From the NCBI RefSeq assembly GCF_000969825.1, contig NZ_KQ033919.1:3608749-3672748 (forward strand): 64,000 nt of DNA. Direction: 5' to 3'. Shown here one piece after another: positions 5,265-55,011 of the stretch. Under the pieces are notes generated by a model. That model saw only the letters and a program-made list of their open reading frames with translations. It searched no databases and had not been told where the DNA came from. The DNA comes from Parabacteroides gordonii MS-1 = DSM 23371 (GTDB lineage Bacteria; Bacteroidota; Bacteroidia; Bacteroidales; Tannerellaceae). The translations under genes were made by a program, and so were the position numbers. The number at the start of each line of letters is the position of its first letter. Positions within the stretch are counted from its first letter, which is position 1.

Positions 5265-6581
5265 TTATTCTCCTTTAAAAAAGGAATTATCTGCTATCCG
5301 TCTGGCATTTTCTTCAATAGACACTTTTAAGTATTTGATTGTAGTCTCAATTTTAGAATGTCCTAATAAATCCTTTATAACAAAGATGTCTGCTCCGGAA
5401 AAGTATAAGTTAGTAGCAAATGATCTACGTGCCGTATGTGTAGATATACATTCGTTCTTATTATATGTATATGTATTGATAACTCCACCTTCAGTTTTAG
5501 AAATTTTCACTTCATCTGTTATACCGGCAATTAAGCCAAGTTCTTTTATATGGTCATTCAATCTTTGATCCGACATTTTAATACTCATGACATTTGTTTT
5601 ATTCAATAGGGTCCGGAAGTTTTTATGTATTGGTATAGAAACAATTTTATTTGTTTTCTGAGTACGTATTTTGATGAGTTCTTTATCTATGTTGAAGTCC
5701 TCAATGCGTGAATAGTCTGATATCCGGAGACCGGTATAGCAACCAACAAGAAATATAAGGCGGGCATCGTTCAACGCTTTTACTTTTCGGGTGATACCGG
5801 ATGGTCGAACATTTTTAAAGAAAGTTTGAACCATCTCAGCAGTAATATTTAGATCGAAAATCTTTTGGACCTCTTTCTTTGTAAGGTATATCGAATCAGT
5901 TTCCTCCTTTTCTTTTTTGAACCTTTTATCTATATAAGCTGTGTTGTTATGTAGTTCTCCGGCAGATTCATTCATGAATTTGGTTATCATCTTGAACAGT
6001 CCTCCTATATAGTTTTTGGAATAATGACGTTGTTGGTTCTTTATGGTATATGTCTTTGTGAGCATATGTGTACGGAACCCATTATAGAAGTCCATGTTTA
6101 TGTTAGAGAAACGAAGTTTGTAACCTGTTTCTTGTTCGTATGCGACAAGATGATTGAGTAAATTTTGATAGTTCCTATATGTACCAGTCGTTTTATCGCA
6201 TGTCTGGATATAGTTCGATATATAATTAGTTAAAAGAGAGTCATCTTTTACTACACCTCCGGCTCCCTCATTTATTTGTGCAATTTTGCTATCAACGGCC
6301 TTTTTGAATGATTGCTGGGTTGGAGTAATCAATTCCTTGTCAAATTCGATAAATACTGAATCTATGATATTGATATATTTTTTTATCTGTTCGTTTTTTA
6401 GAAAGCCATCAGGATACTTTTTGCCTTCACGACACCAGCGTTGGCTATCGATCCAGTGTTCGGTCCGAATAGATATACCTGGAGTGTAACGATATCTTTC
6501 TCCATTTTTTCTAATGATAAACTGTATAGATGTTGTTTCTTTACTTTTGTCAACAAGGAACGGATTTATCTTATTTGCCAT
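5265..6581 (-). CDS. Tyrosine recombinase (prophage integrase)
   Basis: 438 residues in the usual order for Bacteroidetes integrases: an N-terminal arm-binding domain, a SAM-like core-binding domain in the middle and a C-terminal catalytic domain. Catalytic residues visible are the Arg of CYTGLRISDYSRI, HTARR at about 382-386, His of LLGHS at about 408 and the nucleophile Tyr of TIKYLK at about 417, so it appears intact. It should integrate and excise the element. It points away from the candidate attR about 120 bases upstream and converges on the kinase operon. Confidence 0.95.
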   Translation of the reverse strand: MANKINPFLVDKSKETTSIQFIIRKNGERYRYTPGISIRTEHWIDSQRWCREGKKYPDGFLKNEQIKKYINIIDSVFIEFDKELITPTQQSFKKAVDSKIAQINEGAGGVVKDDSLLTNYISNYIQTCDKTTGTYRNYQNLLNHLVAYEQETGYKLRFSNINMDFYNGFRTHMLTKTYTIKNQQRHYSKNYIGGLFKMITKFMNESAGELHNNTAYIDKRFKKEKEETDSIYLTKKEVQKIFDLNITAEMVQTFFKNVRPSGITRKVKALNDARLIFLVGCYTGLRISDYSRIEDFNIDKELIKIRTQKTNKIVSIPIHKNFRTLLNKTNVMSIKMSDQRLNDHIKELGLIAGITDEVKISKTEGGVINTYTYNKNECISTHTARRSFATNLYFSGADIFVIKDLLGHSKIETTIKYLKVSIEENARRIADNSFFKGE

Positions 6582-34573: not shown

Positions 34574-34696
34574 TTATAAAGACCTTTCGCCCGCTAGCAG
34601 TACCTATTTTCTACCCCGCTTAACTGGTAATCCGAATGATTATGCATGCTTTGAAAATTAACAGGAGAGGTGCATTGTGGACTGACTAAAAAAAAC

Positions 34697-34873
34697 GTTC
34701 CTTTTTTCCATGCAGCAAAAATAAGCATTCCTTTCGAACCTACAATCCTTTTCAGAACTTTTTTCACTTTTCTATCTGCTTTCTTATCAGTACGATACGG
34801 AAATGAGGACAAAATCCCCGCTTCTCGTTACAAAAGTGAACAAATCTTAAACGCATGACTAGAAAAAAGGAAC
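34697..34873. repeat. Possible degenerate invertible element
   Basis: GTTCCTTTTTTC (34697-34708) has its reverse complement at 34862-34873; CATGC and GCATG next to the inner ends also pair if a four-base offset is allowed. The enclosed segment of about 150 bp contains a leftward promoter and is related to the clear inverted segment at 51450-51655. The arms are much weaker than there, so inversion is uncertain. Confidence 0.4.
34716..34745 (-). promoter_or_regulatory. Leftward promoter upstream of the first DUF6383 gene
   Basis: Minus strand: TTG (34745-34743), a 19-base spacer, TATTTTTG (34723-34716). Spacing and flanking sequence (the region 34737-34790) match the promoter at 51484-51513. 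It points towards thyA and away from the surface-protein gene. Confidence 0.55.
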
Positions 34874-34914
34874 CTTTAAACTCGCCATTTGGGTTGGCTG
34901 AGGATTAAAATAAT

Positions 34915-35055: not shown

Positions 35056-38000
35056 ATGAGAAAAAGTACTTTGGTAAAAGGCGGGTCGGCCGCTCTTTTA
35101 TGTGCTATGGCTTTTTATGGCTTGTCTCCGATGCTGAATGCAGCAGGGGAAGACTATGCTAATATAAAAGCAAAATGGTATGAAGGTGTGAGCACCGAAG
35201 CCGCGTGGGATGATGAATCGACACTGGTTGGTGACGGTTTGTATAATTTCAAGCCACTCGACAAGGTAAATGTGCACAATCATTGGGAAGCTAACTCAAC
35301 TTCTTATGGTAACTATGAGTCGTTGATCGATTTCACAAAGATGGATGCAGGTTTAATGAATGGTGCTTTTGTTACCTTCTTTAACCTGGATGACAGTGAT
35401 ACTCCTAACTATTTGAAACCATTTACCGGAAAGTATCTGGAAATGGCTTATTCGGATATTAAGAATCACGAAGAAATGAACACTGCCGAATATCTGAAAT
35501 TTACAGATGATAAAGGCAATACCGGTTTGGGTATTTATCAGAATCAGACAGCCAGTTCACGTGTAGACTTTCTGTATAGCACTAAAGGCTTGACAGGTGT
35601 TGAAAGTGTTGAAATGGACGTTCGTGCTTTTGGTAATATTGATCTGGTGAATCGTAAGATCGACTGGACATATGACGTATATGTTTATGATATCTCTGGT
35701 GAATATGTAGGTCAGATGGTTAGTGACCGTGCAATTTTCACGGCAAGCAATCATGAAGTAGTTACAGCGCATACACATCATATTAAAGCGCATGTTTCTG
35801 ATGCTGATAATACAAATGCTAATTCCTGGCAACAAGGTTCTCTGGATAACAAGATCATTCTTGTTATGTTCAAGGGAGCTAAATCGGTTGCTGACGATGC
35901 AGTTTCTTCTACAGGCTCAAAGAACACAGAACCGTTGACAGTTTTCACTAATGCTCGCTTGGCGTTCAATCGTCCGAATGTAGCTTTCGGTGCAGCAAAT
36001 ACGAAAGTGTTTGAAGCGGGTGCCGGACGTAATACTTCCTGTGTTGCCGATACATTGGTAACAACTGTGGAATTGTGGAATACATTGTATAAGAATAATA
36101 AGGATAATAATGAGTATACAGCAACTTTCAGCGGTGTTGATCGTGATGGTCTTTTTGAAGCAGATCAGGACGCCGCTCCGAAAGAAGAACTGGCTTATTA
36201 TGAACTGAACGTTATATATCCGTTTATTGCTGACGAAATGGAAATTTCTCAGGAAAGCGATTTGACAAAAGTTCAGGGTTGGGTTTCTTTGGATCAGATG
36301 GTTGCTGACGGTAAGATCGGTAGAACGGGTACACCTGGTAAGGATAAGAAAGTTACTTATCTGATTCCTCGTGAATATTTCGTTCAGACAGATGCTACAG
36401 ACGACCGCGATTGCAAATCAAGTGCTCGTTTTACTTATTTCTTCGCTCCGCAGGAAGTTAAAGCATTTGACAAAGATAATTATATCTGGTCTACAATCAC
36501 TGCTGAAGCTTCAGACACAGCTCGTTACGAACTTCAGGCTACTTCTATTCCTGAATATAACGAATTGAACGATCTTCATTTCGACGAATATCTGGATTTC
36601 AAGACTGCACAGGTTAGCTTCAAGAACTTGCCTTACTTCAATTCGGTAATTGGTCGTACAACTACTTATACATTGCCGGAATCTCTGTTTGGTGGTCTGA
36701 CTTTGGAAAATCGTACCAAAGCTCCGAAACAGTCAACAGGACGTTATGATGACGATGTGAATATCAAAGGTTGGAAGATCGTGTTTGTAAATGAAGGAGG
36801 TTCGAAAGACTCAACTTATTATGCAGGACGTTTCTTGCCGATGTCACTTACAGGATATAGCTATACCGACTGGAAATCATGGTTGGAAGAAAATGGATGT
36901 GCTGAATGTTGTATTAGTGATTACCCTGAAGAAGTTGGTAATTATGCGGAACTTGATGTAATTGATTGCGCAGGTAATATCAATCCGGATATCATCAGTA
37001 TCAATGCAATCTTCAAATATCACCGTGGTGATGTGAACATCGGTGACGACGAGTCTAAATATGTAAACGAAACATATACAATCGCTCCGCGTCTGGTTTA
37101 CGATGCTTCTGTTGCAAGATATAATGTAAATGAAGATGTACTGTCTGGTACGACTTATACTTACAGCGGTCAGGATCTGATCAACAAAGTAGGTGATGCA
37201 GTTTATACAGGCCCGATCAAGATCTTCGGAAACAATACATTCGTATGGTTCCAGGATACCGACCAGTCTCTGTTAAGCCACGCTATGGGCGTAATGAGCT
37301 CTGAATTACTGAAATACTTCGAAAAGATCGATCGTAAGGACTTCTTCTTCGCTCCGTATGACGAATGGGATAATTACAAATATGAGTCAAGACCTCACAC
37401 AGTGAAGGTATTTGCTACAGGTTTGAAACCGGACGTAGAAGGTGGAACAGTTGCTTCTATCAAGATCTTCAAAGAACAGTTCTCTAAAACATTTGAAGGT
37501 GTAGACGATGCTGTTTATCATACAAATGCATTCGTATTCACAGGTGAAAGCCTTGACTTTGCGAAAGTATATGTGAAGAAAGGTACTCAGGAAAAACCGA
37601 TCGAAGAATACAGCGGTGCTACATTCGGTAAGTTTATCGGTATGAGCGTTGGTGATACTTTGGTTTATAAGGTTGATCTGGATGACGACTATGCTGTACA
37701 GTATGTAGAAGAAAACGGTCTTGAAATGACTGTTAAGTATGTTCCTTACAATGACGTGAACCTGGTTCCGATCGTTGCTGAAAGCTGGAATTCTTGTTTC
37801 GAAGGTACTCCTAACGTATTCAACCACGTAGCTCAGTTCGGTGCAACTACAGCTAACAATAAAGGTTGGAACGAATTCTATACATTCGGTACTACCGACA
37901 GAGGTTTGATCACTACAATGAATGCAGATAAGATCATCGGTTCTTATACTAGCTTCTATTCATTCCTGACTCAACAGTTCGGTAACTGCAACTCTTGCGG

Positions 38001-51339: not shown

Positions 51340-51357
51340 AATGTACGCACGTACATT
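51340..51357. promoter_or_regulatory. AATGTAC palindrome upstream of the second DUF6383 gene
   Basis: AATGTACG-CA-CGTACATT, a perfect 18-base palindrome preceded by TATATT. Counterpart of 34556-34573. Both lie 90-140 bases left of the leftward promoter. Confidence 0.55.
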
Positions 51358-51449
51358 GTTATATACATATGATAATTCTCCAGTGAATTACCTGGACTAA
51401 AAAGCTATATTATATATTGAAAAGTAAGGAGTGAATGATACAAAGTGTA

Positions 51450-51482
51450 TGACTAGAAATAACGGTCGTTTATTCTCGTCAA
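51450..51482 (+). repeat. Left 33-bp arm of the inverton
   Basis: Begins ATGACTAGAAATAACGG and ends TCTCGTCA. All 33 bases match the reverse complement of 51623-51655; identity stops exactly at both ends, as expected for a maintained recombination site. Confidence 0.85.
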
Positions 51483-51483
51483 C

Positions 51484-51513
51484 AAAAGTACTCATAAGTT
51501 TTAAACCTGCAAT
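51484..51513 (-). promoter_or_regulatory. Leftward promoter inside the inverton
   Basis: Minus strand: TTG (51513-51511), 19-base spacer, TACTTTTG (51491-51484). The sequence upstream of the -33 element (51514-51557 on the plus strand, including GCTTTCTTATCA) is conserved at 34746-34792, which suggests functional upstream DNA. Confidence 0.6.
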
Positions 51514-51622
51514 CCTTTTGATTAATTTTTTTCCTGACCTATATGCTTTCTTATCAACCGGATAGAAAGATTAGTATGAAATTCCTTCTTTTTATGACAA
51601 AGGCATCACTCCCTATAAAGTG

Positions 51623-51655
51623 TGACGAGAATAAACGACCGTTATTTCTAGTCAT
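51623..51655 (-). repeat. Right 33-bp arm of the inverton
   Basis: Exact reverse complement of 51450-51482. It would form part of the 5' leader in the ON orientation. Confidence 0.85.
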
Positions 51656-51732
51656 TTGATATGACATGCCCTCAGAACGGGGCTATAAAGGAGTTTTTAG
51701 TAACACTATTATTAATATTAAATTTATTGATT

Positions 51733-54700
51733 ATGAACAAAAAGTTTTCTACGCTTATGATGGCGGGTATGCTGGTTGCAGGCTCGTCGTTTAGTGCTTT
51801 GAATGCGCAGGTAAAGCTGAACAACAAGCCATTGGCTGTCGTAAAGGCTTTTGAAACTGCCGCTGATAAAGACAACTCGGGTGATTATATTGTTGTTCGC
51901 GATGCGAATAATAATGGTAAAGTTGATGCAAATGATTATATCCTTATTGCTGAAAAGAATCAATTAGGGGAAATTACTTATTCTTCAAAAAAAATCACAG
52001 CTGATAATGTTACAATCACTGATGAAACAACAGCTGTTTGGACGTTGACTGAAAAGGACAACAAAGCAGTGGGTGCAACTGAAGCCTCTTGGCTTTATGG
52101 CTTGAAGAGTAAGAATACTGGGTATTATTTGACTGTAAAGAATGGTGCAATTCAGGAAACAGTAAGTGATTCTAAAGATGCTTTGACTTTAGATTTAGAT
52201 AATACTGTTGGTTCAACTTTTTGTGTTGGGCAGGGCAATGATAGTAAGACCAGAATTGCTCAAAATTCTACCCTCTATACTTATAAGACGACAAATGGAG
52301 CCAATGGCTTTATGGCAAATTCAGGGGGGTGGGTAATTGGAGATCCATCAGGAAATCATTACGGCCTTCTTTTCGTTACGTTTGCAGAACGTACTGTAGA
52401 CTTTGTGGATGAACTGAACGATATCAAAGGCGGCAAAGGCTTCCAATTCTCTTTCCCTGATCAAAAAGATAAAACTATCATCGATAATATCTTTGCCAAT
52501 CAGGATGTAAGAGCATTCAGAGTTAAGATGGATTATAGTGATCCTACTATACTTGGAGACTCTATCGGTTGGGTTGCTAACGGAAATTATTATGAAATTC
52601 CTGCCGGTACTTATCTGGCAACAGATTGGAGTGGATTGAGTGAAGAAACACTTGCTAATAACACAATCACAACAAAAGAAGAATTCCAGAAAGCAACTTT
52701 CATCGCTATTGATCCGCAGGATTTTACAAAGATTACTAATACAGAACGTAAAAATGGTGTTGGCTTTACTTTAGCTACAGTTAAAGGTTCTGATATGAAC
52801 TTCTACGATGCAGAAACAAATAAAGCACACAATAAGTATGACGGAACTTTGGAATCTTCAAATGCTGATGTGTTTGTAGGTAATGCTTGCTTTGCTATTA
52901 CTGTTCCCGATCCATTAGCTAAGAACGACCAGTACAACTTGGCTGTAAAGAACGCTCGTCTGGATCTTAAGGATGATGATGCACATGCAGCTAAGGGTGT
53001 CGTAATTAGTGTAGTAAGTAATACTAATAATGTGGATGATGCAACAACAGATATCGTTTATCTGGTTACTAATACATCAAAAGCTGCTACCGTGAAAGCT
53101 GTTCCTTCTTCAAACATTGCTGATGTAACAGAATTGTTGAACGAAGATGCAACTCCGGCTATCTATGCTATTAAGTTTATCAGTGGTGCTGATGCAGAAG
53201 ATGGTGAAGTTTCTGAATATGGTCAGTATCTGACTGTTGAATCTAACGGTTCAACTTCACCGTCAAATTCCTGGAGAGCAGTTACGATGCCTAATGCAAA
53301 CGAAAATGATCCTTTGTATCAGTTCGTTCTTTCAGGTGTGAAAGACTTCGATAAAGATGGTAATTATGAAACTCTTGTAGCAACTAACCGTCAAACAAAA
53401 GTTCCCTTCTCTGCTGTATTGTATAAAGAAGAAGCTTTGGGTGACAATGTTTATACGATCTATCCGGATAAAGAATTGCCATGGGAAAACATCCAGGTTG
53501 CAACAGACGAGGATGGTAAGTTGAAGTTTAAGAAAAAATCGTTCAAAGGTATGCTGGTTCAGCTGATCGAGAAAGAAAATGTGGACAAATTTGCTACATT
53601 CGAAACAGCTGAAAGCGAAGAAGGTCTGTATACATTCGAATTTGCTAAGACTGCTGAGTCTGAAGACAGATTGTTCGCTGCTGCAACAAGAAATACAGAT
53701 GATGAAATTCAGTATACTGGTCGAGTTGTAACTGCAACAACAGCTGATCAGTTCGAGTTGATCCGTGTGAAAGAAAGCAATGGTAAAGATAAAGTAACTA
53801 ATATTTTGAACGACTTTATCTATCTGTCAAATGGTACAGTAAAGACATCTGCTATCGAAAAGGATACAGTTGCTTACTATTCTTACAATGTTAGATACTT
53901 TGCTCCGGATCAAAATGATGAATATTATCTGAAATCCGGTAGTTTGGCTACTACTCCTTCTGCTCACATTATCAAATATAATGCAGATGGTTCTGTTTCT
54001 TTGTTTGATGAAGCTGCTACAAATGACTTTATTACTACTGCTGGTACTCCGAATGCTAAAGCTCAATATTTAGCAATGGACGCATTGAAAGGTGCTAGCC
54101 AAGTAAATGAAAAGGCAAATATTGGTAAGAGTGCATGGACTTGGGGCGACTACTATCTTAATGAAGGTACTTACAATGCGACAGTAAAGACTTTCATGGT
54201 ACAGGAGAAAGTATACGGTACATTGAATCCTATTGCACAGACAACTGCATTTGAAAACGAATTCGGTTATGTAAATATGAATGCAGATAAGGCTGGTATC
54301 TTGAAACCTGCTGAATCAATGACATTCAGACTGGATACAGTAGATTCAGACAAGAACATCCCGTCATTCTATATTTCTAAAGAAATAGACGGAGTACATC
54401 ACTTCATGTATTTTGCAAAAGACTCTGCTGAAAGCTATCGTTTGACTAGCTGGCAGAAGTATGCATTCGAGAATGGTTCTACAGGTTCAAATAATAGAGC
54501 TACAAGATTGATCTTCAAGGCTGGTCAATTAGTTGACACGGATACATTGAAGACAATGATAGATGGTAAATCTACATTTGTAGCAGAAAAAGCCAACGCT
54601 GTTAAGGGTGTTAAAGGTGGTCTGAATAACTTCAAGTTCCAGGTAATCGAATCTGGTGACGATGATGATACTTATGTAATCCGTAATAAAGCAACAAGAT

Positions 54701-55011
54701 CTTATGTAATCAACATCAATGGTAACTTGACATTAGGTTCAAGCTTGGCTGGCGCTACTCGTTTCACTGTTGATCCTGACGAAACGGTAGCTAACGAGGC
54801 AGTCGGAGTTTCTTCTATCGAAGTTATCGCAGGTAACGGTTATGTAACAGTGATTGGTGCTCAGGGTAAGAAGGTTGCTATCAGCAACGTACTTGGTCAG
54901 ACAGTTGCTAACACAGTAATCTCTTCCGATAACGCTACAATCGCTGCTCCTGCAGGTGTAGTTGTAGTTGCCGTAGAAGGTGAAGCCGCTGTAAAGGCAA
55001 TCGTAAAATAA
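51733..55011 (+). CDS. Phase-variable surface protein candidate with DUF6383 C terminus
   Basis: 1092 residues. Signal peptide MNKKFSTLMMAGMLVAGSSFSALNAQ; then calcium-loop-like stretches DKDNSGDY (45-52) and DANNNGKVDAND (57-68), a long beta-rich body, and a DUF6383 C terminus (ISNVLGQTVANTVISSD, APAGVVVVAVEGE, ending KAIVK). Several D-S/T-hydrophobic sites (DSIGW, DTVAY, DTLKT) fit the Bacteroides O-glycosylation motif. The frame continues upstream to 51661, but ATG 51733 begins the signal peptide and the upstream part abuts the inverted repeat. Control by the inverton is inferred. Surface-layer-like glycoprotein is the best guess, not proven. Confidence 0.82.
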   Translation: MNKKFSTLMMAGMLVAGSSFSALNAQVKLNNKPLAVVKAFETAADKDNSGDYIVVRDANNNGKVDANDYILIAEKNQLGEITYSSKKITADNVTITDETTAVWTLTEKDNKAVGATEASWLYGLKSKNTGYYLTVKNGAIQETVSDSKDALTLDLDNTVGSTFCVGQGNDSKTRIAQNSTLYTYKTTNGANGFMANSGGWVIGDPSGNHYGLLFVTFAERTVDFVDELNDIKGGKGFQFSFPDQKDKTIIDNIFANQDVRAFRVKMDYSDPTILGDSIGWVANGNYYEIPAGTYLATDWSGLSEETLANNTITTKEEFQKATFIAIDPQDFTKITNTERKNGVGFTLATVKGSDMNFYDAETNKAHNKYDGTLESSNADVFVGNACFAITVPDPLAKNDQYNLAVKNARLDLKDDDAHAAKGVVISVVSNTNNVDDATTDIVYLVTNTSKAATVKAVPSSNIADVTELLNEDATPAIYAIKFISGADAEDGEVSEYGQYLTVESNGSTSPSNSWRAVTMPNANENDPLYQFVLSGVKDFDKDGNYETLVATNRQTKVPFSAVLYKEEALGDNVYTIYPDKELPWENIQVATDEDGKLKFKKKSFKGMLVQLIEKENVDKFATFETAESEEGLYTFEFAKTAESEDRLFAAATRNTDDEIQYTGRVVTATTADQFELIRVKESNGKDKVTNILNDFIYLSNGTVKTSAIEKDTVAYYSYNVRYFAPDQNDEYYLKSGSLATTPSAHIIKYNADGSVSLFDEAATNDFITTAGTPNAKAQYLAMDALKGASQVNEKANIGKSAWTWGDYYLNEGTYNATVKTFMVQEKVYGTLNPIAQTTAFENEFGYVNMNADKAGILKPAESMTFRLDTVDSDKNIPSFYISKEIDGVHHFMYFAKDSAESYRLTSWQKYAFENGSTGSNNRATRLIFKAGQLVDTDTLKTMIDGKSTFVAEKANAVKGVKGGLNNFKFQVIESGDDDDTYVIRNKATRSYVININGNLTLGSSLAGATRFTVDPDETVANEAVGVSSIEVIAGNGYVTVIGAQGKKVAISNVLGQTVANTVISSDNATIAAPAGVVVVAVEGEAAVKAIVK

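Follow-up and report, generated by a model that had tools for sequence, protein, structure and literature searches.

The window analyzed here, a stretch of 64,000 nucleotides from the genome of Parabacteroides gordonii, contains a perfect inverted repeat around a promoter that points away from the gene next to it. This arrangement raises the question whether the locus is a phase switch, which enzyme would turn it, and whether it stands alone in the genome. A family of phase-variable glycoproteins in Parabacteroides distasonis was reportedly described by Fletcher et al. in 2007. Phase-variable glycoproteins of that species are also named in later work (PMC8400631), as are the glycoproteins DgpA and DgpC (PMC2943079). 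They offer a parallel from within the genus that we know by citation only: surface glycoproteins whose promoters invert. An earlier note on this DNA had proposed a switch of this kind, and its claims are taken up where our results bear on them.

The inverted repeat and the gene behind it

A repeat search of the window returned two arms of 33 nt that are 100% complementary and lie 141 nt apart (Table 1). The earlier note had described a perfect 33-bp repeat with identity ending sharply at both ends, and this is what we find: 33 of 33 bases match, and both the outer pair (51448/51656) and the inner pair (51482/51622) next to the arms are mismatched. Only its numbering needs correction, as the start was placed one base late (the arm begins at 51449) and the interior measures 141 bp, not 140. 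When up to 3 mismatches are allowed, the arm sequence has just these two copies in the window, none in 100 dinucleotide shuffles, and no further copy in the 6.79-Mb genome. It had been proposed to look for the same arm in front of other genes; near-identical copies are absent elsewhere, but a looser dyad site does precede other DUF6383 genes, as described below.

The interior carries a minus-strand promoter of the type TTG-N19-TACTTTTG, again as claimed earlier. Between about 1.1 kb before and 0.7 kb after position 51661, where the frame begins, a plus-strand TTG-N18-21-TAnnTTTG is absent, and the statement that the gene has no promoter of its own thus holds for the plus-strand consensus in this stretch. 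The DUF6383 gene indeed lies to the right of the repeat, with 77 and not 78 bases between the arm and its ATG. At the end of the leader, 43 bases that run into the gene are identical at three loci of the genome.

Pairing is possible for any inverted repeat, and the arms could be a chance repeat that acts as a hairpin or terminator without any recombination. The probability of this is practically negligible: shuffling did not produce the repeat, the right arm and leader of the window switch fold no better than shuffled sequence (z -0.42), the arrangement is conserved in a family, and at the level of this family the opposite orientations of one member among its orthologues (see below) contradict it. 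A conserved leader hairpin was also considered and dropped, as the folds vary among loci and that of the window switch is at shuffle level.

The frame of the window protein is open over 1092 codons. Its C-terminus matches DUF6383 (PF19910) with 101.3 bits at a cut-off of 23.7, and an N-terminal signal was recognized by eye. DUF6383 has been named a putative T9SS targeting domain (PMC9722745). Against the type IX sorting domain TIGR04183 the protein reached 13.4 bits (E 0.056), which is below the cut-off of 23, and when the protein alignment was searched against solved structures, no convincing relative came up (best E 0.52).

Table 1. Positions of the switch elements, the gene behind them and the candidate invertase (window coordinates unless a contig is named)
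Feature	Position	Strand	Remarks
Left arm of the inverted repeat	51449..51481	+	Putative recombination site 51450-51481; 2-bp center GT at 51465-51466
Right arm of the inverted repeat	51623..51655	-	Putative recombination site 51623-51654; center AC at 51638-51639 (GT on the minus strand)
Putative invertible interior, 141 bp	51482..51622	.	Between the arms; L143, a paralogous switch, has its interior reversed compared with its orthologues L163 and L068
Bacteroidetes-type promoter TTG-N19-TACTTTTG	51483..51512	-	-7 box 51483-51490; -33 TTG 51510-51512; points away from the DUF6383 gene
Upstream promoter element TTGATAAGAAAG	51546..51557	-	Conserved; accompanies the promoter at switchable as well as locked loci
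GTAC palindrome AATGTACGCACGTACATT	51340..51357	.	Begins 110 bp left of the left site
Leader, right arm to start codon	51656..51732	+	Terminal part conserved in both orthologues
Predicted DUF6383 surface-protein gene behind the switch	51733..55011	+	1092 aa; start ATG at 51733 conserved with relatives
Second window switch	34683..34887	.	Sites 34683-34714 and 34856-34887; centers TT/AA; before a DUF6383 gene, ATG at 35056
Mpi-family serine DNA invertase, 200 aa	G000:C1:4436365-4436964	-	0.78 Mb from the window switch, same contig

A family of paired sites upstream of DUF6383 genes

Paired sites were sought by inverted repeats first and then by the dyad TGACTAGNNAAAACG-NN-CGTTTTNNCTAGTCA, each site being scored out of 26. 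The genome that holds the window (G000) has 38 DUF6383 matches, two in the window and 36 elsewhere; all 38 upstream regions were read, and 20 of them carry paired sites. For ten relatives from the genus 207 matches were reported, and 100 upstream regions were examined among the matches listed, with paired sites in 62. Over the 11 genomes this amounts to 82 of 138 regions. The regions examined, given per matches, were 24/31 in G021, 20/24 in G023, 10/13 in G013, 11/14 in G014, 7/14 in G016, 6/9 in G020, 9/21 in G002, 6/27 in G004, 4/30 in G019 and 3/24 in G009; from the fragmented assemblies of G002, G004, G019 and G009 plus-strand genes only were taken. The 100 regions are what is left of 106 selected ones after six had been removed, some of them cut by a contig end, and two stretches of G021 (L127, L128) were extended owing to short frames. 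The 24 matches of G011, G012, G017 and G018 stand outside this tally, and the switches L225, L258 and L259 outside the 82.

The same pair criterion applied to dinucleotide-shuffled regions gave 0 of 414. Among 66 real chunks of 2.2 kb, taken from the window and from other stretches, pairs occurred in only 2, and both were the window's own switches. Site spacing in G000 is 163-174 bp with a single exception of 185, and the element TTGATAAGAAAG is present with 12 of 12 bases in 77 of the 82 switches and with 11 of 12 in the remaining 5. The second switch of the window has weaker sites (21/26 each) and is OFF, with its promoter on the minus strand at 34716-34745. Eight more pairs or near-pairs adjoin genes other than DUF6383, some of them in neighborhoods that by eye are of the capsule type. 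With some twenty switches of similar make, the window switch among them, the cell could vary its coat.

There are also DUF6383 genes that lack the sites. In one of them in G000 (L049) the same promoter module, together with TTGATAAGAAAG, faces the gene. It has counterparts in seven other genomes (L131, L162, L171, L186, L193, L214 and L221), which makes 8 of the 11 genomes, and L049 and its counterparts look like locked-ON paralogues. Some 20-24 kb past the window gene (G000) or its orthologue (G021 and G023) comes the locked gene. Further site-less DUF6383 genes have a plus-strand promoter at other distances (e.g., L042, L044 and L050).

Forms of the GTAC palindrome with at least 13 of 16 bases occur at 6 of the 20 switches in G000, and looser variants were seen by eye at most of the others. 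The forms with at least 13 of 16 bases begin 34-110 bp left of the left site, and they are also found near the locked loci L171, L186 and L193. A role of the palindrome as recombinational enhancer was considered and not adopted; its closer forms are present at a minority of switches, their distance varies and they occur at locked loci too.

Site structure and recombinase class

Within each arm, 32 bp form an imperfect palindrome about a 2-bp center, and its halves (ACG-NN-CGT) presumably resemble the Mpi consensus. The centers of the 20 switches in G000 are TT in 11, AT in 7, and GT and AC in one each; TA is common in G013, G014 and G020. It is characteristic of serine recombinases that the overlap at the crossover measures exactly two bases; tyrosine recombinases require six to eight. 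When the sites were paired by script, the center was equal in both arms of 81 of the 82 switches, compared with a mean of 37.8 and a maximum of 53 in 10,000 shuffles within genomes; hand pairing of the three-site locus L158 brings this to 82 of 82. The sites of L158, which is from G023, lie at 311, 485 and 662, and the second equals the third in sequence and orientation.

Position by position, each of the two center bases matches in all 82 switches (shuffle means 45.8 and 62.3), position 13 matches in 68 (62.2 when shuffled) and position 14 in 73 (72.4 when shuffled). Matching extends beyond the center, above all at position 19, which matches in 79 of 82 as against 52.5 when shuffled; it is accompanied in the inner half-site by positions 23 and 28, with 66 and 46 matches against 50.2 and 33.9. 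Outer half-site positions are mostly no better matched than shuffled ones. Apart from position 22, which is invariant, only the 2-bp center is matched in all 82 loci. The arms of the window switch are identical throughout and therefore cannot decide the class of the enzyme by themselves; it is the family that decides. Because the center matches within every locus while adjacent bases sometimes do not, a serine recombinase is indicated, and this is the class that the pattern of center matching fits.

The earlier note had suggested a tyrosine recombinase as the enzyme that inverts a switch of this same kind, and there are circumstances that would suit such an enzyme. The genome has 66 matches to the phage-integrase family, and a tyrosine-type recombinase gene is described beside inverting capsule loci of P. 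distasonis (PMC8400631). In Bacteroides thetaiotaomicron the S-layer switches lie near site-specific integrases, and near-identical repeats stand beside tyrosine-type invertases (PMC12118408). However, an identical crossover region of six to eight bases was not found across our family for centered overlaps: ahead of the center, the second base (position 14) mismatches in 9 of the 82 switches and the third (position 13) in 14, so that at least 9 switches would lack an intact overlap of 6 bp and at least 14 one of 8 bp. The halves of our sites are, moreover, like the capsule-promoter repeat GTTCGTTTAA of Bacteroides intestinalis and unlike the repeats beside tyrosine-type enzymes (PMC12118408), and a serine invertase of the Mpi family is present in the genome. 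The suggestion is thus not supported, and we hold inversion by a tyrosine recombinase to be quite improbable.

Rather than forming chiefly an ON/OFF switch, the same sites could serve as exchange cassettes in the manner of a shufflon, where sites of equal center at different loci would recombine and move promoters or genes. Such traffic would have many partners in G000 among the switches with TT and AT centers (11/20 and 7/20), it would find three sites to act on in L158, and the over-matching of positions 19, 23 and 28 within a locus looks as if cassettes move whole. For the window switch this reading is very improbable all the same: among the DUF6383 switches of G000 its center GT is common only to L065 (as AC on the other strand), and the nearly fixed spacing of the sites speaks for local inversion.

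Orientation of the switches

Judged by the promoter motif, 76 of the 82 switches are OFF, 3 are ON and 3 are undecided. With L158 re-paired and the element CTTTCTTATCAA used for the two that lack the motif, the count becomes 79 OFF and 3 ON, the latter being L143 in G021, L170 in G013 and L219 in G020. If both orientations were equally frequent, 3 or fewer ON among 82 would have a probability of 2e-20, and OFF is therefore strongly favored in these assemblies, each of which gives the majority state of the sequenced DNA only. In every genome examined, at most one switch is ON. One-at-a-time expression was considered as an explanation, but we do not claim it or any mutual exclusion, because with 3/82 ON at most one ON switch per genome is expected (probability 0.58 under independence).

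The interior of L143 aligns in reverse with that of L163 from G023 (93% over 195 bp) and with that of L068 from G000 (87% over 196 bp), while the flanks run in the same direction in both comparisons. A same-direction alignment of L143 and L163 at 86% also spans all 884 bases, the interior included; we call the interior reversed on account of the 93% reversed match and of the printed sequences. The promoter points toward the gene in L143 and away from it in L163 and L068. Since one member shows both orientations among its orthologues, inversion is real in the DUF6383 switch family. Together with the same architecture in 82 of 138 regions, this member lends support to the earlier claim that the window holds a phase switch in the OFF state before a predicted surface-protein gene.

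The orthologues of the window switch in G021 (L003, L135) and in G023 (L002, L159) are OFF, which with G000 makes 3 of 3, and their arms are imperfect at the inner end. Both orientations are known for the family member L143 and its orthologues, while at the window locus itself a single orientation was seen. A switch of the same type in P. faecis (L225) is OFF as well, and it was the sole locus returned by a scan of named genomes with a pattern that had one fixed promoter-to-arm distance.

Uniform OFF copies and imperfect arms in the two relatives are what one would expect if the window locus were a relic, that is, a former switch frozen OFF whose gene is silent or read from elsewhere. In G000, however, the arms are perfect over 33 bp, their centers are equal, the promoter and TTGATAAGAAAG are intact, and the reading frame has stayed open over its full length. 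OFF is furthermore the usual state family-wide, including the orthologues of the switch that is ON in G021. We consider a relic unlikely.

A candidate invertase

The strongest of four serine-recombinase matches in the G000 genome belongs to the Mpi family. The protein matches NF009949 (NCBIfam, master DNA invertase Mpi family) with 322.8 bits at a cut-off of 272, and its best solved relatives are DNA-invertase chains (4m6f, 3uj3). Active serine recombinases have the motif RVST, and this motif is found in the protein. The enzyme has copies of 96% identity in G021 and G023, which are the nearest genomes. Of 25 genomes of the genus, G000 included, 22 have a homologue of more than 50% identity, which in two cases covers only part of the protein.

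In G000, G021 and G023 a site of 22/26 lies 58 bp before the start codon of the invertase. Sites scoring 20 or more were absent from 3 Mb of Markov sequence, and in the remaining genus loci compared the site before the invertase is below 18/26. This site ties the enzyme to the switch sites in the three nearest genomes, and its position suggests that the enzyme may control itself.

Among the 25 genomes, G004, G006 and G018 have no close homologue, and G006 and G018 have no match to the switch DNA either. The fragmented assembly of G004 has the switches L199, L258 and L259 but matches to Mpi only at 30% and, in a split gene, at 46%. An invertase homologue is present in G019 (60%) and in G009 (65%), yet by the consensus none of the DUF6383 regions examined there has paired sites (0/4 and 0/3). 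Co-occurrence of enzyme and sites was tried as proof of their connection and set aside, since G004, G019 and G009 spoil it.

Several other recombinase genes were seen along the way. A Mpi-family paralogue in L079 (9469-10065, plus strand) has RVTT in place of the active motif, and its counterpart from G004 in L257 likewise has Thr; the RVTT paralogue may bind DNA without cutting. In L256 (G004, contig 427, 2901-3990) a Mpi-family gene lies in two halves, residues 1-103 on the minus strand and residues 101-200 on the plus strand, which points to either an inversion within the gene or a misassembly. The window itself has a tyrosine recombinase gene at 5319-5765 on the minus strand, one of the 66 phage-integrase matches (PF00589, in a frame of 455 aa); it lies some 46 kb away from the switch.

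Discussion

We consider it highly likely that the window locus is an invertible-promoter phase switch of the Mpi type, in the OFF state, that it belongs to a large repertoire of surface proteins, and that an unlinked serine invertase of the Mpi family acts on it. The segment is very probably flipped by an enzyme that is encoded elsewhere in the genome. Two inverted 32-bp dyad sites with GT crossover centers would bracket a complete promoter module; the Mpi-family invertase would pair both sites, cut at the center dinucleotide and rejoin the segment the other way round. By mirrored coordinates, the -7 box would then come to lie at 51614-51621. Transcription of the ON state would start within the right arm, as the earlier note had reasoned as well, about 105 nt before the ATG, and the DUF6383 protein would be produced. 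One invertase would serve about 20 DUF6383 switches and some other loci. The observations behind this model are the arms, the promoter, the architecture of the family, the matching of the centers, one switch seen in both orientations and the enzyme gene; from them we infer that the enzyme acts on these sites, that the window segment inverts and that expression changes with it. Against it stand the 3 of 3 copies that are OFF, the 3 of 82 switches that are ON, the mismatch of enzyme and sites in G004 and in G019 and G009, the score below 18/26 before the invertase gene in the remaining genus loci compared, and the matching of position 19.

Serine invertases, dyad sites and a 2-bp crossover are features of the Hin and Gin systems. 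The Hin gene adjoins its own switch, whereas here the enzyme gene is distant. In this respect the Mpi switches of Bacteroides fragilis are similar, where one unlinked serine invertase, Mpi, is described for 13 invertible regions, with seven capsule loci (PMC4747536; PMC5903667). Common to both is a single unlinked enzyme of the Mpi family with many short promoter segments between inverted repeats; unlike in B. fragilis, many members drive single DUF6383 genes, there are 20 of these switches in a genome, nearly all are OFF, and several centers are used. The capsule promoters of B. intestinalis (183-186 bp) have the repeat GTTCGTTTAA (PMC12118408), which in our own reading fits AAACG-TT-CGTTTAA. 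With the BT1927 S-layer family of B. thetaiotaomicron our switches share paralogous surface proteins, invertible promoters and a strong OFF bias, BT1927 being expressed in about 1 in 1,000 cells (PMC12118408). That family differs in its repeat, CCGTTACCTABVRAGTAAC, which is located near site-specific integrases and apparently belongs to another enzyme class (PMC12118408). A description of DUF6383 switching was not found in the open-licence literature, which is a weak sign of novelty, as most subscription papers lie outside that search.

The kind of switch is already known from Bacteroides. What seems to be added here is the link of the DUF6383 family to Mpi-type sites and the center rule, together with the scale of the system, the paralogue that looks locked and the site in front of the invertase gene. 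It is tempting to combine these into a genus-wide coat repertoire under one master invertase that is in turn bound into this system. About 20 DUF6383 switches, nearly all OFF, would fall by their centers (TT, AT and GT/AC, with TA in other species) into groups compatible for recombination, a locked-ON paralogue would serve as the default coat, and through the site before its gene the invertase could regulate how much of it is made. This wider picture is speculative, and we offer it as a tentative possibility.

Capsules and S-layers bear on phage resistance (PMC12118408), and coat switching probably also bears on the encounters of commensals with the host immune system. Given many loci, the center-dinucleotide rule offers a way to separate serine-type from tyrosine-type switches by sequence. 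A lone inverted repeat becomes a definable regulon that comprises a gene family across Parabacteroides, the motif of its sites and a probable enzyme, and coat switching in these gut commensals would become readable from sequencing reads and testable by the deletion of one gene.
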